Origin: Klebsiella oxytoca
GTDB taxonomy: Bacteria > Pseudomonadota > Gammaproteobacteria > Enterobacterales > Enterobacteriaceae
Direction of reading: 5' to 3'
Assembly: GCF_009707385.1 (NCBI RefSeq)
Contig: NZ_CP046115.1
Span: forward strand, 2,108,001 to 2,172,000
DNA: 64,000 nt
A model generated the notes under the pieces. The model was not told the DNA's origin. It searched no databases and saw only the letters and a program-made list of their open reading frames with translations. This document shows, piece by piece, positions 9,286-55,639 of this stretch; position 1 is the stretch's first letter, and each line of letters begins with the position of its first letter. The position numbers and the translations under genes are program-made.

Positions 9286-9424
9286 TATACCCGTCATACT
9301 TCAAGTTGCAGGAGCGTTGGCTGTGTCACCTGGCTCATCCATGAGCCTCGCCCCTACGGGGCCAGCGCTAGCGCTGTTCAAGTCACAAGTCCCCCATCCT
9401 GCAACCCGGATTATCCAGGGTATA
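9286..9424. repeat. Intergenic palindromic repeat between frwB and pflD
   Basis: A 139-bp element with inverted ends TATACCC and GGGTATA and an internal GCGCTAGCGC palindrome. Near the ends it reads CCGTCATACTTCAAGTTGCA and GTTGCAACCCGGATTATC-like sequence. It resembles a repeat I recall from other enterobacterial intergenic regions. It lies inside the frw-pfl operon, so it must be transcribed and could separate the PTS and enzyme messages. Confidence 0.5.
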
Positions 9425-47567: not shown

Positions 47568-47783
47568 ATGCCCGATTGCTGTAACGGAAAACGTCAAACC
47601 CCATACCGTACTCATCAGCACGGCAGCCACACTTCCGGCCGCGATTTTCACACCGCTAAATCATCCTCTTCTACCATAGAAAACCCGAACCCAGGCAAGG
47701 TTATCGGTGCGCGTAGCCGTGACCCTCTGCCAATTCGTCAGGCAAGCAATGGCTTACAAGGAAGCCAAAACCTCAATCGTTAG
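47568..47783 (+). CDS. Small ORF upstream of phoH (71 aa)
   Basis: A 71-residue hydrophilic frame, MPDCCNGKRQTPYRTHQHGS..., rich in Ser, His, Arg and Asn, with no hydrophobic segment. GGAG lies eight bases before the ATG and the codons look ordinary. Its end overlaps, in another frame, a 46-codon extension of phoH. It could be a leader peptide or a small protein; I know no family. The other reading is that this region is only the phoH leader. Confidence 0.4.
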   Translation: MPDCCNGKRQTPYRTHQHGSHTSGRDFHTAKSSSSTIENPNPGKVIGARSRDPLPIRQASNGLQGSQNLNR

Positions 47784-47844
47784 TGCGCATAATCGCGTCG
47801 AACGTGGCGCGTGTGATGTAAACCAACAACGCAAGGTGCTATCC

Positions 47845-48633
47845 ATGGGAAGACAAAAAGCAGTGACCAGAGCTCGTCGTGAGGCCAAACGTGTGCTGAG
47901 ACAGGATTCGCGAAGCCATAAGCAGCGCGAAGAAGAATCGGTCACATCGCTTGTGCAAATGAGTGGCGTAGAAGCAATTGGCATGGCGCGGGATAGCCGC
48001 GATGCATCGCCAATTGAGGCGCGCAATGAGGCTCAGGCGCATTATTTGAATGCTATCGACAATAAGCAGCTGATTTTTGCGACGGGCGAAGCCGGGTGCG
48101 GTAAGACCTGGATTAGCGCGGCAAAAGCCGCTGAAGCCCTGATCCACAAAGATGTGGACAGAATTATTGTTACCCGTCCCGTTCTGCAGGCCGACGAAGA
48201 TCTCGGCTTCTTACCGGGAGATATCGCCGAGAAGTTTGCTCCCTATTTCCGCCCGGTCTATGACGTACTGGTGAGAAGGTTAGGCGCTTCCTTTATGCAA
48301 TACTGCCTGCGTCCGGAAATCGGCAAGGTGGAAATCGCGCCGTTCGCCTATATGCGCGGACGTACATTTGAAAATGCGGTAGTGATCCTGGATGAGGCGC
48401 AGAACGTGACCGCGGCGCAAATGAAAATGTTTTTGACCCGCCTCGGGGAGAACGTGACGGTCATCGTCAACGGCGATATTACCCAGTGCGATTTACCTTC
48501 TGGGGTGAAATCAGGACTCGCCGATGCGCTGGCGCGTTTTGAGGAGGACGAGATGGTAGGTGTTGTACGCTTTACTACCGACGATTGCGTGCGTTCAACC
48601 CTTTGTCAGCGCGCGCTGAAAGCCTACTACTGA
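47845..48633 (+). CDS. phoH: PhoH, phosphate-starvation-inducible ATPase
   Basis: A 262-residue cytoplasmic P-loop ATPase related to the N-terminal part of superfamily I helicases. Walker A is FATGEAGCGKTWISAAKAA (about residues 78-96) and Walker B VVILDEAQNVT (about 178-188), with VNGDITQCDLP as a sensor motif. The role is unclear; PhoH-like proteins have been linked to RNA metabolism. MGRQKAVTRARREAK is the conserved start, with AAGG nine bases upstream. The frame is open back to 47707, so a longer form is possible. Confidence 0.9.
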   Translation: MGRQKAVTRARREAKRVLRQDSRSHKQREEESVTSLVQMSGVEAIGMARDSRDASPIEARNEAQAHYLNAIDNKQLIFATGEAGCGKTWISAAKAAEALIHKDVDRIIVTRPVLQADEDLGFLPGDIAEKFAPYFRPVYDVLVRRLGASFMQYCLRPEIGKVEIAPFAYMRGRTFENAVVILDEAQNVTAAQMKMFLTRLGENVTVIVNGDITQCDLPSGVKSGLADALARFEEDEMVGVVRFTTDDCVRSTLCQRALKAYY

Positions 48634-49065: not shown

Positions 49066-49309
49066 CGACATGCGAAAAAAAAGCCCGTACTTACGTACGA
49101 GCTCTTCTTAAAATATGGCGGTGAGGGGGGGTGAGGGGGGGATTGACTCGCTTTGCTCGCCCTCCGGGCAGCTTCCTCGCAGGCTCGTCAGCTGTCCAAC
49201 TGGCTGACGCCAGTTGTCGACCCCCGGTCGGGGGCTCTCATCCCCCCCTGGTGGGGTGCAATATGCGAAAAAAAAAGCCCGTACTTACGTACGAGCTCTT
49301 CTTTGAATA
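49066..49309 (-). repeat. RtT-like tRNA-tail repeat, first locus
   Basis: Read on the minus strand, the first tRNA-Ser is followed by its terminator (AGCTCGTAC-GTAA-GTACGGGCT and a T-run). Next come CCCC/GGGG, CCCCCGACCGGGGG and AACTGGC-GTCA-GCCAGTT hairpins, a second tRNA-like 3' end at 49116-49144 and a second terminator (near 49068-49105). The 3' tail carries an internal 10-bp duplication (GTGAGGGGGG twice, 49121-49140). Same unit as at 54059-55551. Confidence 0.8.
49116..49309 (-). ncRNA. RtT-like RNA unit after the first tRNA-Ser
   Basis: One repeat unit from the base after the tRNA CCA to the next tRNA-like tail. If the primary transcript passes the first terminator and is cut at the CCA ends, this segment would be released, as rtT RNA is from the E. 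coli tyrT transcript. Expression is inferred. Confidence 0.55.
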
Positions 49310-49397
49310 TGGCGGTGAGGGGGGGATTCGAACCCCCGATACGTTGCCGTATACACACTTTCCAGGCGTGCTCCTTCAGCCACTCGGACACCTCACC
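49310..49397 (-). tRNA. tRNA-Ser (anticodon GGA), copy 1
   Basis: An 88-nt class II tRNA with CCA encoded. Acceptor stem GGTGAGG/CCTCACC, D-arm GAGTGGCTGAAGG, anticodon loop CTGGAAA giving GGA, a long variable arm (TATACGGCAACGTATC), and T-arm GGGGGTTCGAATCCCCC. It reads UCC/UCU codons. It is identical in all 88 bases to the copy at 55552. Terminator and repeat follow on the minus strand. Confidence 0.97.
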
Positions 49398-52760: not shown

Positions 52761-53987
52761 ATGGCAGCCCCTTTGGGTCGTTTGGCGCTTATCCCGCTGT
52801 TATTTATTACCGCTTGTCATCAGCCTGTGTCGTCAACAGCGGCAGGACCGGTACCCATTACCCAGGATCAACAAGCGATTATTGATAACACCACGCTTGA
52901 GATCTCACGCAGCGCGCTGGAATACAATATTCATAAGGTCCAGCAGCTTCTGGGCAATCAAACTCGTTTATGCGCCATCCTGAAAGGGGATGCCTATGGC
53001 CATGACCTTAAGCTTGTTGCGCCAATAATGATGCAGAACAATGTTCAGTGCATCGGTCTTGCCAGCAACGAGGAAATTCACACCGTTCGTAGCCTCGGTT
53101 TTAAAGGGCAGCTAATGCGCGTACGCAATGCGACTGAAAAGGAGATGCTGCAAGCGGCAGATTTCGATACCGAAGAGCTTATTGGCAACCTGGAAATGGC
53201 GAAACGTCTGAGCGCTATCGCTGTCAACAAAGGAAAAGTTATCCGTATCCATCTGGCGCTGAACTCTGGCGGGATGTCGCGTAATGGCCTTGAAGTCAGT
53301 AATGTCGCCGGTCTTGAGCAGGCCCGTGCGATTTCAGCACTGCCGGGCCTGAAAATCGTCGGGATCATGTCTCACTTCCCCGAAGAAGACGCTGCGGTGG
53401 TGAAACGGGATCTTGCTCGTTTTAAAAACCAGTCAGCCCAAGTGTTGCAGATTACTGGACTGAAACGCGAAGACGTTACGTTGCATGTTGCCAATACTTT
53501 TGCCACGCTGACGGTACGTGATTCCTGGCTCGATCTGGTTCGCGTCGGCGGCGTTTTTTACGGTGATACCATTGCCAGTACGGAATATAAACGCGTAATG
53601 ACGTTTAAATCCTCGATTGCTTCGGTAAATCACTATCCTGTAGGCAATACCGTCGGCTACGATCGCACCTACACTCTTAAACGCGACTCTGTCCTCGCCA
53701 ATATTCCTACGGGCTACGCGGATGGTTATCGGCGTGTATTCAGTAATACCGGGCATGTGCTGATTAACGGGCAGCGGGTTCCGGTGCTCGGCAAAACGTC
53801 GATGAACACGGTAATTGTCGATGTTACGGACCTCAAGCAGGTTAGTCCTGGCGATGAAGTAGTGCTCTTTGGTAGGCAAGGAAATGCGCAGATTAGCGCA
53901 GAAGAAGTCGAAGAGATCAGCGGCGCGCTGTTCACTGAGATGTCGATTCTCTGGGGCGCGACCAATAAGCGAGTGCTTGTCGACTAA
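52761..53987 (+). CDS. Lipoprotein alanine/broad-specificity amino acid racemase
   Basis: A 408-residue PLP racemase of the Alr/Bsr type. The N-terminal LLFITACH is a lipobox, with the acylated Cys at residue 19 followed by His, so the enzyme is probably anchored in the outer membrane facing the periplasm. PLP lysine in [12 protein letters not shown] (cytoplasmic Alr has KADAYGHG); [15 protein letters not shown] and [13 protein letters not shown]; catalytic Tyr region [20 protein letters not shown]-terminal [13 protein letters not shown] and [21 protein letters not shown] and the export signal favour broad-specificity periplasmic racemases over house-keeping Alr. Confidence 0.82.
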
Positions 53988-54043: not shown

Positions 54044-54104
54044 GTTCAGGCCAGCCCGGATGCGAAAAAAAGCCCGTACTTATGTACGAGCTCTTCTTTG
54101 AATA

Positions 54105-54286
54105 TGGCGGTGAGGGGGGGATTGACTCGCAGCGCTCGTCCTCCGGGCAGCTTCCTCGCAGGCTCGTCAGCTGTCCAACTGGCTGACGCCAGTTGTCGAC
54201 CCCCGGTCGGGGGTTCTCATCCCCCCCGGTGGGGTGCAATATGCGAAAAAAAAGCCCGTACTTACGTACGAGCTCTTCTTAAAATA
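54105..54286 (-). ncRNA. RtT-like RNA unit, tRNA orientation (left flank)
   Basis: Full 182-bp unit in the same direction as the tRNA, left of the inverted core. The terminator stem shows TTTGAATATGG wording like the first locus, so this copy is closer to the 49.3-kb repeat than its neighbours are. Confidence 0.5.
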
Positions 54287-54452
54287 TGGCGGTGAGGGGG
54301 GGATTGACTCGCTGCGCTCGCCCTCCGGGCAGCTTCCTCGCAGGCTCGTCAGCTGTCCAACTGGCTGACGCCAGTTGTCGACCCCCGGTCGGGGGTTTTG
54401 GACAGCTGACGAGCCTGCGAGGAAGCTGCCCGGAGGGCGAGCGCAGCGAGTC

Positions 54453-54630
54453 AATCCCCCCTCACCGCCATATTTTAAGAAGAGCTTGTACGTAAGTACG
54501 GGCTTTTTTTTCGCATATTGCACCCCACCAGGGGGATGAGAACCCCGACCGGGGTCGACAACTGGCGTCAGCCAGTTGGACAGCTGACGAGCCTGCGAGG
54601 AAGCTGCCCGGAGGGCGAGCGCAGCGAGTC
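54453..54630 (+). ncRNA. RtT-like RNA unit, inverted core 1
   Basis: 178-bp unit on the plus strand starting with the tRNA-like tail AATCCCCCCTCACCGCCA. The terminator stem has AGCTTGTAC in place of AGCTCGTAC; the changed base still pairs (U-G). The spacer palindrome is ACCCCGACCGGGGT, one G/C pair shorter on each side. Confidence 0.5.
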
Positions 54631-54810
54631 AATCCCCCCTCACCGCCATATTTTAAGAAGAGCTTGTACGTAAGTACGGGCTTTTTTTTCGCATATTGCA
54701 CCCACCAGGGGGGATGAGAACCCCCGACCGGGGGTCGACAACTGGCGTCAGCCAGTTGGACAGCTGACGAGCCTGCGAGGAAGCTGCCCGGAGGACGAGC
54801 GCTGCGAGTC
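54631..54810 (+). ncRNA. RtT-like RNA unit, inverted core 2
   Basis: 180-bp unit, same orientation as core 1. The end of the spacer reads GGACGAGCGCTGCGAG where core 1 has GGGCGAGCGCAGCGAG. Confidence 0.5.
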
Positions 54811-54992
54811 AATCCCCCCCTCACCGCCATATTTTAAGAAGAGCTTGTACGTAAGTACGGGCTTTTTTTTCGCATATTGCACCCCACCAGGGGGGATGAG
54901 AACCCCCGACCGGGGGTCGACAACTGGCGTCAGCCAGTTGGACAGCTGACGAGCCTGCGAGGAAGCTGCCCGGAGGGCGAGCGCAGCGAGTC
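54811..54992 (+). ncRNA. RtT-like RNA unit, inverted core 3
   Basis: 182-bp unit with the full seven-C tail and the long ACCCCCGACCGGGGGT palindrome. GGGCGAGCGCAGCGAG form of the spacer end. Confidence 0.5.
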
Positions 54993-55171
54993 AATCCCCC
55001 CCTCACCGCCATATTTTAAGAAGAGCTCGTACGTAAGTACGGGCTTTTTTTTCGCATATTGCACCCCACCGGGGGGATGAGAACCCCGACCGGGGTCGAC
55101 AACTGGCGTCAGCCAGTTGGACAGCTGACGAGCCTGCGAGGAAGCTGCCCGGAGGACGAGCGCTGCGAGTC
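54993..55171 (+). ncRNA. RtT-like RNA unit, inverted core 4
   Basis: 179-bp unit with the AGCTCGTAC terminator form and the short ACCCCGACCGGGGT palindrome. GGACGAGCGCTGCGAG form of the spacer end; the two spacer forms alternate along the array. Confidence 0.5.
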
Positions 55172-55369
55172 AATCCCCCCCTCACCGCCATATTTTAAGA
55201 AGAGCTCGTACGTAAGTACGGGCTTTTTTTTCGCATATTGCACCCCACCGGGGGGGATGAGCTGGCTGACGCCAGTTGTCGACCCCCGGTCGGGGGTTCT
55301 CATCCCCCCTGGTGGGGTGCAATATGCGAAAAAAAAGCCCGTACTTACGTACAAGCTCTTCTTAAAATA

Positions 55370-55551
55370 TGGCGGTGAGGGGGGGATTGACTCGCTGCGC
55401 TCGCCCTCCGGGCAGCTTCCTCGCAGGCTCGTCAGCTGTCCAACTGGCTGACGCCAGTTGTCGACCCCCGGTCGGGGGTTCTCATCCCCCCTGGTGGGGT
55501 GCAATATGCGAAAAAAAAGCCCGTACTTACGTACAAGCTCTTCTTAAAATA
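55370..55551 (-). ncRNA. RtT-like RNA unit directly after tRNA-Ser copy 2
   Basis: 182-bp unit from the base after the tRNA CCA to the next tail at 55370. It starts with the real terminator of the tRNA (AGCTTGTAC-GTAA-GTACGGGCT, T-run). By analogy with the tyrT operon it would be the first rtT-type RNA released from read-through transcripts. Confidence 0.6.
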
Positions 55552-55639
55552 TGGCGGTGAGGGGGGGATTCGAACCCCCGATACGTTGCCGTATACACAC
55601 TTTCCAGGCGTGCTCCTTCAGCCACTCGGACACCTCACC
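55552..55639 (-). tRNA. tRNA-Ser (anticodon GGA), copy 2
   Basis: An 88-nt tRNA with encoded CCA, identical in every base to the copy at 49310. Its position just before ghrA corresponds to serX of E. coli. Anticodon loop CTGGAAA, long variable arm. The array of tRNA-tail repeats follows on the minus strand. Confidence 0.97.

Follow-up and report, generated by a model that had tools for sequence, protein, structure and literature searches.

Results

The repeats behind a tRNA-Ser(GGA) gene of Klebsiella oxytoca form a tandem array whose units are, as judged from their sequences, relatives of the RtT family lying below the Rfam cut-off. We favor the reading that their hairpin core is a palindromic DNA module over the reading that they constitute a small RNA (sRNA) family. 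Two genes for tRNA-Ser(GGA) lie on the minus strand of the window, meaning the whole stretch of 64,000 nucleotides that was analyzed, at 49310-49397 and 55552-55639 (ARAGORN; the second scored 53.8 bits with the Rfam tRNA model). The tail of the second gene, that is, its last 17-19 nt, is repeated in an array on the minus strand that starts at ~54065 and ends at 55551. Three copies are in tRNA sense, at 55370-55388, 54287-54305, and 54105-54123 on the minus strand, and five are inverted, at 55172-55190, 54993-55011, 54811-54829, 54632-54648, and 54454-54470 on the plus strand. Once the block 54398-55261 is flipped back, eight cores become visible, and the tail spacings, counted from the tRNA tail, are 182, 182, 178, 180, 182, 179, 182, and 182 nt. 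These results confirmed the earlier sequence-only reading, which had described eight tails after the second tRNA, 178-182 nt apart and partly inverted. The inverted-repeat arms extend up to 333 nt with 97% complementarity, so that a chance origin of the array is excluded. A unit consists of the tail, a terminator, and, according to the predicted fold and conserved pairs, hairpins P2, H1, H3, and H4 with a weaker H2. Tail and terminator were therefore as that reading had them, the tail measuring 17-19 nt, but the hairpins exceed the three it had counted. At the tRNA-Ser locus of 19 relatives of the genus, where some cuts are truncated by the end of the contig or have no tRNA called, we observed 0-4 extra tails versus the eight seen here, and a single orientation per locus cut.

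The inverted block

The inverted block spans 864 bp (54398-55261, plus strand) and contains five tails. Its inversion is an exact, blunt flip, and turning it back yields a seamless head-to-tail array at both ends. The breakpoints (CCAG|TTGG and GATGAG|AACC) have, by eye, no inverted homology between them. Since both are blunt and unlike each other, recombination between inverted repeats was rejected as a simple account of the flip. The inversion would be either a later, separate event or an error of assembly, in which an 864-bp contig or repeat path was misoriented and the true array consists of eight direct units. We consider the chances of such an error to be about even. It would account for the seamless flip-back and for breakpoints that share no inverted homology, and a hairpin-rich stretch of 36 nt borders the block at each end. 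Mixed orientation was also absent elsewhere: among 82 locus cuts with at least two cores, the 24 cuts with two orientations all represent this array, and one of the two flip junctions, searched in E. coli, was covered to 80% in none of 5426 genomes. Against an error stands the chromosome itself, which is a single contig of 5394761 bases and for this reason suggests a long-read assembly.

Relation to the RtT family

The RtT repeats of E. coli tyrT are 178 bp long and contain 19 nt of tRNA-Tyr, and RtT has been regarded for decades as a possible stress sRNA of a single tRNA operon. The Rfam model RF00391 matched six window units with 31.0-37.3 bits, thereby not reaching the gathering cut-off of 45 bits. 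The sequence-only reading had named the lack of any RtT hit as evidence against itself; what we found lies between, namely hits to six units, but below the cut-off. In placement, the window units agree with RtT, lying behind a tRNA gene and ending in the 3′ tail of that tRNA. Scores over the cut-off (103-136 bits among the best 150 of 351 candidates scored) were obtained at the tRNA-Tyr and tRNA-Pro(CGG) elements of this genome, and 22 of 148 genomes of the order have a match above it. The tRNA-Tyr pair of this genome shows two RtT matches 177 nt apart, each ending in 19 nt of tRNA-Tyr, so the comparison with the tRNA-Tyr repeats drawn by that reading holds within this genome.

A covariance model, R1, was built from 35 elements at tRNAs other than tRNA-Ser, and it detected seven array units with E values from 2.6e-12 to 8.1e-8. 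In tRNA sense, it matched the full unit (core plus tail) nearest the tRNA at 55370-55499 (minus; 52.6 bits, E 2.6e-12; RF00391 36.7 bits at 55370-55506), the unit at 54287-54395 (minus; 35.7 bits), whose upstream part is cut by the distal flip junction (54397/54398), and the full unit at the distal array end, 54105-54234 (minus; 50.1 bits; RF00391 37.3 bits at 54105-54241). Full inverted units were matched on the plus strand at 55063-55190 (41.5 bits), 54882-55011 (52.6 bits), 54700-54829 (47.3 bits), and 54524-54648 (41.0 bits). Units cut by the flip junctions scored weakly, at 55241-55317 (minus; 17.7 bits, E 0.005; tRNA-proximal junction, 55261/55262) and at 54382-54470 (plus; 18.7 bits, E 0.0027; distal junction). 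A lone unit after the first tRNA-Ser was also found, at 49126-49255 (minus; 51.2 bits, E 6.1e-12; tail 49126-49142). Because a model without Ser elements matches seven array units, the likeness between the array and RtT is homology, and an independent origin of the Ser array was rejected. The earlier idea that one plan is built on different tRNAs is retained, but the array is no second invention of that plan.

At the same tRNA-Ser locus, beside ghrA, two E. coli regions contain units annotated as "RtT sRNA" and described as "processed from tyrT transcript", and many E. coli matches are likewise named RtT sRNA among the matches listed. RtT-like units at tRNA-Ser are therefore not new, as E. coli annotation already gives them this name. 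Of 5426 E. coli genomes, 3724 had a close match to the Ser core of E. coli itself, and in 3328 the match covered at least 80% of that core (median 2 places, maximum 12). The window array resembles the RtT RNA of E. coli tyrT in its tandem units of ~178 nt behind a tRNA, the last 17-19 nt of that tRNA, and the core motifs; it differs in scoring 31-37 bits against a cut-off of 45, in sitting after the terminator of tRNA-Ser, and in comprising eight units, partly inverted.

Elements ending in the tail of their own tRNA

We derived a search motif from the Ser, Tyr, and Pro units of this genome, and its letters are accordingly conserved by construction. It occurred at 6 places in this genome. Among 119 family genomes, 36 had a match, and among 185 class genomes, 5 did (the own genome being counted in both); the reversed motif had no match in any of these searches. 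In genome contigs, at least 118 stretches were matched. Among these 118 listed, 13 had less than 300 nt upstream, and in 95 of the other 105 a tRNA end was located 18-94 nt upstream. The elements were found to end in the tail of their own tRNA: for the 91 stretches of these 95 with sufficient downstream sequence, the last 17 nt of the own tRNA were present in 84 (at most 2 edits) and exact in 70, a count made over all 118 listed stretches without preselection for the own tail. Tails of tRNAs of other classes fitted in 33 of 2103 tests on the same listed matches. The tRNAs carrying elements among the matches listed were those for Lys, Tyr, Ser, Pro, Arg, Glu (2), Gln (3), and Gly (1). Ten listed stretches had no tRNA end within 150 nt. 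L161, which is coding-like, and L075 look like chance, and most of the remaining ones look like later units or units of uncalled tRNAs. In the open-licence PMC literature, as far as titles and the starts of abstracts tell, no paper states this own-tail rule or links RtT to the ERIC module described below.

Short forms, which lack P2 and H1, separate tandem tRNA-Arg(ACG) genes and also occur in this genome's Lys/Val cluster. In two tRNA-Arg(ACG) arrays (L217 and L221), short forms occupy the spacers of identical tandem tRNA genes; such forms might contribute to the duplication of tRNA genes. One motif match (L060) came from a Firmicute, Paenibacillus flagellatus, 18 nt behind tRNA-Ser(TGA), with a tail copy present and a fold unlike the others. 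In two Rheinheimera stretches (L125 and L090), some H4 loops read ACAGGAUGU, which we take to resemble the CsrA/Rsm binding motif.

Element anatomy and covariation

A unit begins with a spacer S (in the array, one with the tRNA terminator) and a 5′ arm; these are followed by a T-arm-like hairpin that has TTCGA or TCGA at its end, by a module M, and by the last 17-19 nt of the tRNA. The 5′ arm is reverse-complementary to the 3′ strand of the T-stem and acceptor of its own tRNA, and M comprises ~75 nt of hairpins (…CCCGNAGGGYGAG…CGARU). We analyzed arms, terminators, G.U and A.C pairs, RNAfold structures, and the tree below with a set of 171 elements, for which the own tail (at most 4 edits) was required, or with 79 dereplicated elements from it. 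For 13 tRNA classes, none of 20000 class permutations reached the observed sum of arm-to-own-tail matches, and the same was obtained with Watson-Crick pairs only. The own tail nevertheless ranked top in only 7 of the 13 classes: that of Ser(GGA) was third with G.U pairs counted and first with Watson-Crick pairs alone, and those of Pro(CGG), Pro(TGG), Pro(GGG), Ser(CGA), and Ser(TGA) were not first under either pairing rule. This comparison of sequences has shown that the closing stem covaries with the tail of its own tRNA.

Covariation was evaluated in hand-picked alignments, A1 (50 sequences), A2 (35), and A3 (20), which contain family elements, a window unit, and modules located in ERIC-like repeats or elsewhere (including five of six ERIC right-arm sites). 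Of the cells in the named stems of the 50 sequences, 89% pair, compared with 32-49% when the stems are slid by 1-3 columns. Double-sided changes amounted to 182 cells versus 67.8 in shuffles, with a score of 0.306 versus 0.104. Two of the five covariation measures were not above shuffles, namely double-change pairs (12 versus 11.9) and further pair types (40 versus 37.6). The invariant letters GATGAG, CCCGNAGGG, and CGAR suggest a selected recognizer, which palindrome correction alone would not give.

A module shared with ERIC-like repeats

R1, the model without Ser elements, also matched places without a tRNA, and among the best 150 of 2000 candidates scored most of these were ERIC-like repeats, recognized as ERIC/IRU repeats by ERIC-PCR primer sequences. 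ERICs can carry an insert of ~70 bp. The module was present at 6 and absent from 12 of the 18 ERIC right-arm sites in this genome, and further modules were observed in left arms. In the right arm, the module reads CAAA…GAGTA or similar and follows GAGCGA or a near variant. A module from an ERIC site and a tRNA-Arg element agreed at 80% over 75 nt. In a joint module alignment of 20 sequences, 83 double changes were found versus 27.9 in shuffles, and pair types were no more numerous than in shuffles.

At E ≤ 0.01, a module model, R2, located at least 61 places in this genome (best 150 of 2383 candidates scored), of which 42 were in an ERIC context, 13 at tRNAs, and 6 in a third repeat. A single mark out of four sufficed for an ERIC context, and 5 of the 42 places had no more than that; the 13 places at tRNAs include three array units more than 600 nt away from the tRNA. 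In the window, R2 matched a hairpin module in an ERIC-like repeat at 9326-9401 (minus; 44.1 bits, E 1.1e-9), which bears two ERIC marks (contig position 2117326). Its matches to the Ser modules of the window were weak (19.6-26.9 bits; for array units, 19.6-26.8 bits, E 3.3e-5 to 0.0024), and among the best 150 of 2383 candidates scored at E ≤ 0.01 it missed the Tyr units of this genome. With the ERIC center (CCCCAGGAGC…GTGACTGGGG) and arms as marks, no ERIC mark occurred within 170 nt of five checked module matches at two tRNA-Ser loci. The hairpin module of ERIC/IRU repeats is matched weakly in the array, which lacks the ERIC arms and center and carries tRNA-derived arms instead. At two tRNA-Phe loci (L284 and L333), three modules are reversed, each before a tRNA-Phe tail copy in tRNA sense. 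The third palindromic repeat with the module was seen in this genome at L303, L306, L311, L314, L315, and L331, and most copies continue with CCTCACGTAC or a close sequence.

RNA helix or DNA palindrome

Pair counts frame a testable choice, since an RNA helix tolerates G.U, whereas a DNA palindrome treats G.U and A.C alike. Hairpins were counted with home-made finders, one common to cores and terminators and a segment-anchored one that differs from it and returns other numbers. With the common finder, 253 core hairpins of 79 dereplicated elements contained 1553 Watson-Crick, 7 G.U, 16 A.C, and 14 other pairs. The 77 neighboring terminator hairpins contained 675, 33, 0, and 4, respectively, and the ratio of G.U to A.C differed between cores and terminators with a Fisher p of 6e-9. 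In the same count series, tRNA stems of the same loci showed 402 Watson-Crick, 5 G.U, and 1 A.C pairs. Segment-anchored counting gave 6 G.U and 3 A.C for H1, H2, and H4 together, 9 and 8 for the closing stem, and, for the Y-R pair, 46 C-G, 21 U-A, 3 U.G, and 5 C.A; the contrast of H1, H2, and H4 with terminators was weaker here (p 0.007). The Tyr class alone had 2 G.U and 4 A.C. In RNAfold structures, the G.U share was 4.6% in elements (139 of 3051 pairs) versus 6.6% in tRNAs (58 of 884; p 0.018), a small difference. If a helix is maintained as RNA, its changes should run via G.U and not via A.C, and the cores show no clear G.U excess in any count.

Of 117 distinct spacers, 75 had a terminator separating the tRNA from the core, with 29 of 30 for Ser(GGA), 18 of 18 for Pro, 19 of 26 for Lys, and 0 of 31 for Tyr. 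Since Tyr elements and the operon forms at Arg and Lys have no terminator behind the tRNA, these are probably transcribed. The scarcity of G.U in the cores and the terminator before most non-Tyr cores together make an RNA function less probable.

Discussion

The sequence-only reading had proposed a family of small RNAs. On an sRNA account, the units would encode sRNAs cut, as rtT-like RNAs, from tRNA read-through, with a tRNA-like CCA end and a part in stress or amino-acid control. The family name and the E. coli annotation agree with it, as do a conserved and strong predicted fold, RNAfold structures that do include G.U pairs, and Tyr cores that follow no terminator. RtT RNAs placed upstream of tRNA genes are reported to give signals on Northern blots in Actinobacillus pleuropneumoniae (PMC4986893). 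The cores, however, hold 7 G.U against 16 A.C pairs (with segment-anchored counting, 6 and 3) where terminators hold 33 and 0, the Tyr class is no exception, and nearly all distinct Ser spacers have a terminator ahead of the core. The module also occurs within ERIC-like repeats and in both orientations relative to the tail. Taken together, the sequences lend little support to a family of small RNAs, A.C being no rarer than the rare G.U, and we judge that account unlikely, if still to be reckoned with. Its competitor, a core behaving as DNA, is favored over a new set of sRNAs because the same hairpin core is found inside ERIC-like repeats.

Regarding the array, the explanation we prefer, to which we give an even chance, is that an RtT-like tRNA-tail element was tandemly expanded and that M is a palindromic insertion module maintained at the DNA level. 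The repeats of tail and S would permit homologous recombination, by which units may be gained or deleted, and the drifting copy number (0-4 extra tails in relatives, eight here) would follow from it. The Pro loci fit such gain and loss, because repeats of tail and spacer can recombine: in this genome and eight chosen relatives we observed one or two units, arrays with a truncated end core, truncated cores alone, or core-free loci, six of these nine chosen loci having been picked for the absence of a strong match. An inserted rtT is reported as a difference between E. coli J53 and MG1655 (PMC5968721). M may transfer between tRNAs via the T-loop letters that these have in common (TTCGA/AATCC), and palindrome correction or selection would afterwards adapt the arm to the new tail. 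A core tree required 23 changes of tRNA identity, compared with a possible minimum of 13 and 48 in shuffles, and grouped six Pro elements with a Tyr element (SH-aLRT 97); the tree is weak, with 103 columns and 39 of 76 inner branches open. Because of these identity changes and the Pro/Tyr grouping, movement of elements between tRNAs is likely. We know of no mover of the module. Read-through RNA may be made, and it need not be the function.

More broadly, and more tentatively, with the odds slightly against it, RtT may not be primarily an RNA, but one of several settings in which a promiscuous palindromic DNA module of ~75 bp resides. This module would insert into copies of the tRNA T-loop and tail in either orientation, into both ERIC arms, and into a third repeat; its tRNA form would re-match the flanking arm, and its arrays would gain and lose units and possibly flip. 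Should the DNA reading be true, the label "rtT sRNA, processed from tyrT transcript" behind tRNA-Ser is wrongly placed on a repeat element, and the long forms of ERIC and the tRNA-tail repeats become a single puzzle. The own-tail rule, over tRNAs for eight amino acids, would then be a natural record of a short element adapting to new tRNA targets.

Two further explanations address the position behind tRNA genes. The T-loop is a usual crossover place of tRNA-targeting integrases, and the tail copies start there (AATCC…CCA), as they would if they were decoys or remnants of attachment sites for elements that integrate by recombination in the T-loop. Such sites leave the tail-complementary arm and the hairpin module unexplained. 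Among the 10 of 11 flanking ORFs scanned, no integrase or transposase family and no prophage or island genes were found; the ORFs belong to peroxidase, PhoH, isochorismatase, pirin, LysR, alanine racemase, 2-hydroxyacid dehydrogenase, PHP, and nitrate reductase delta/chaperone-type families, with one having no family. Only 1 of 50697 phage records had a match, which was partial, and 23 of 72556 plasmid records had one, several of these being chromosome-sized, and carriage by phages or plasmids was rejected. We consider attachment sites very improbable. Alternatively, the elements might function as BIMEs do, forming a topological or termination barrier after tRNA genes that are strongly transcribed. 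BIME and REP elements are palindromic, as the array is, dispersed, and extragenic, and to our knowledge they are not bound to a tRNA tail, unlike the array. The elements do sit behind tRNA operons, and Naville and Gautheret tied rtT-like sequences to BIMEs (PMC2965389). Copy number nonetheless falls to zero in close relatives, and a barrier is in our view hardly less improbable than attachment sites.

Two observations concern the neighborhood of the tRNA-Ser genes. The alanine racemase ORF (52761-53987, plus) lies between them, and its start appears, by eye, to be lipoprotein-signal-like. A match to Rfam RF02855, Ysr251 (Yersinia sRNA 251), of 150 bits is located at 48435-48628 on the minus strand, antisense to the PhoH-type ORF at 47707-48633.
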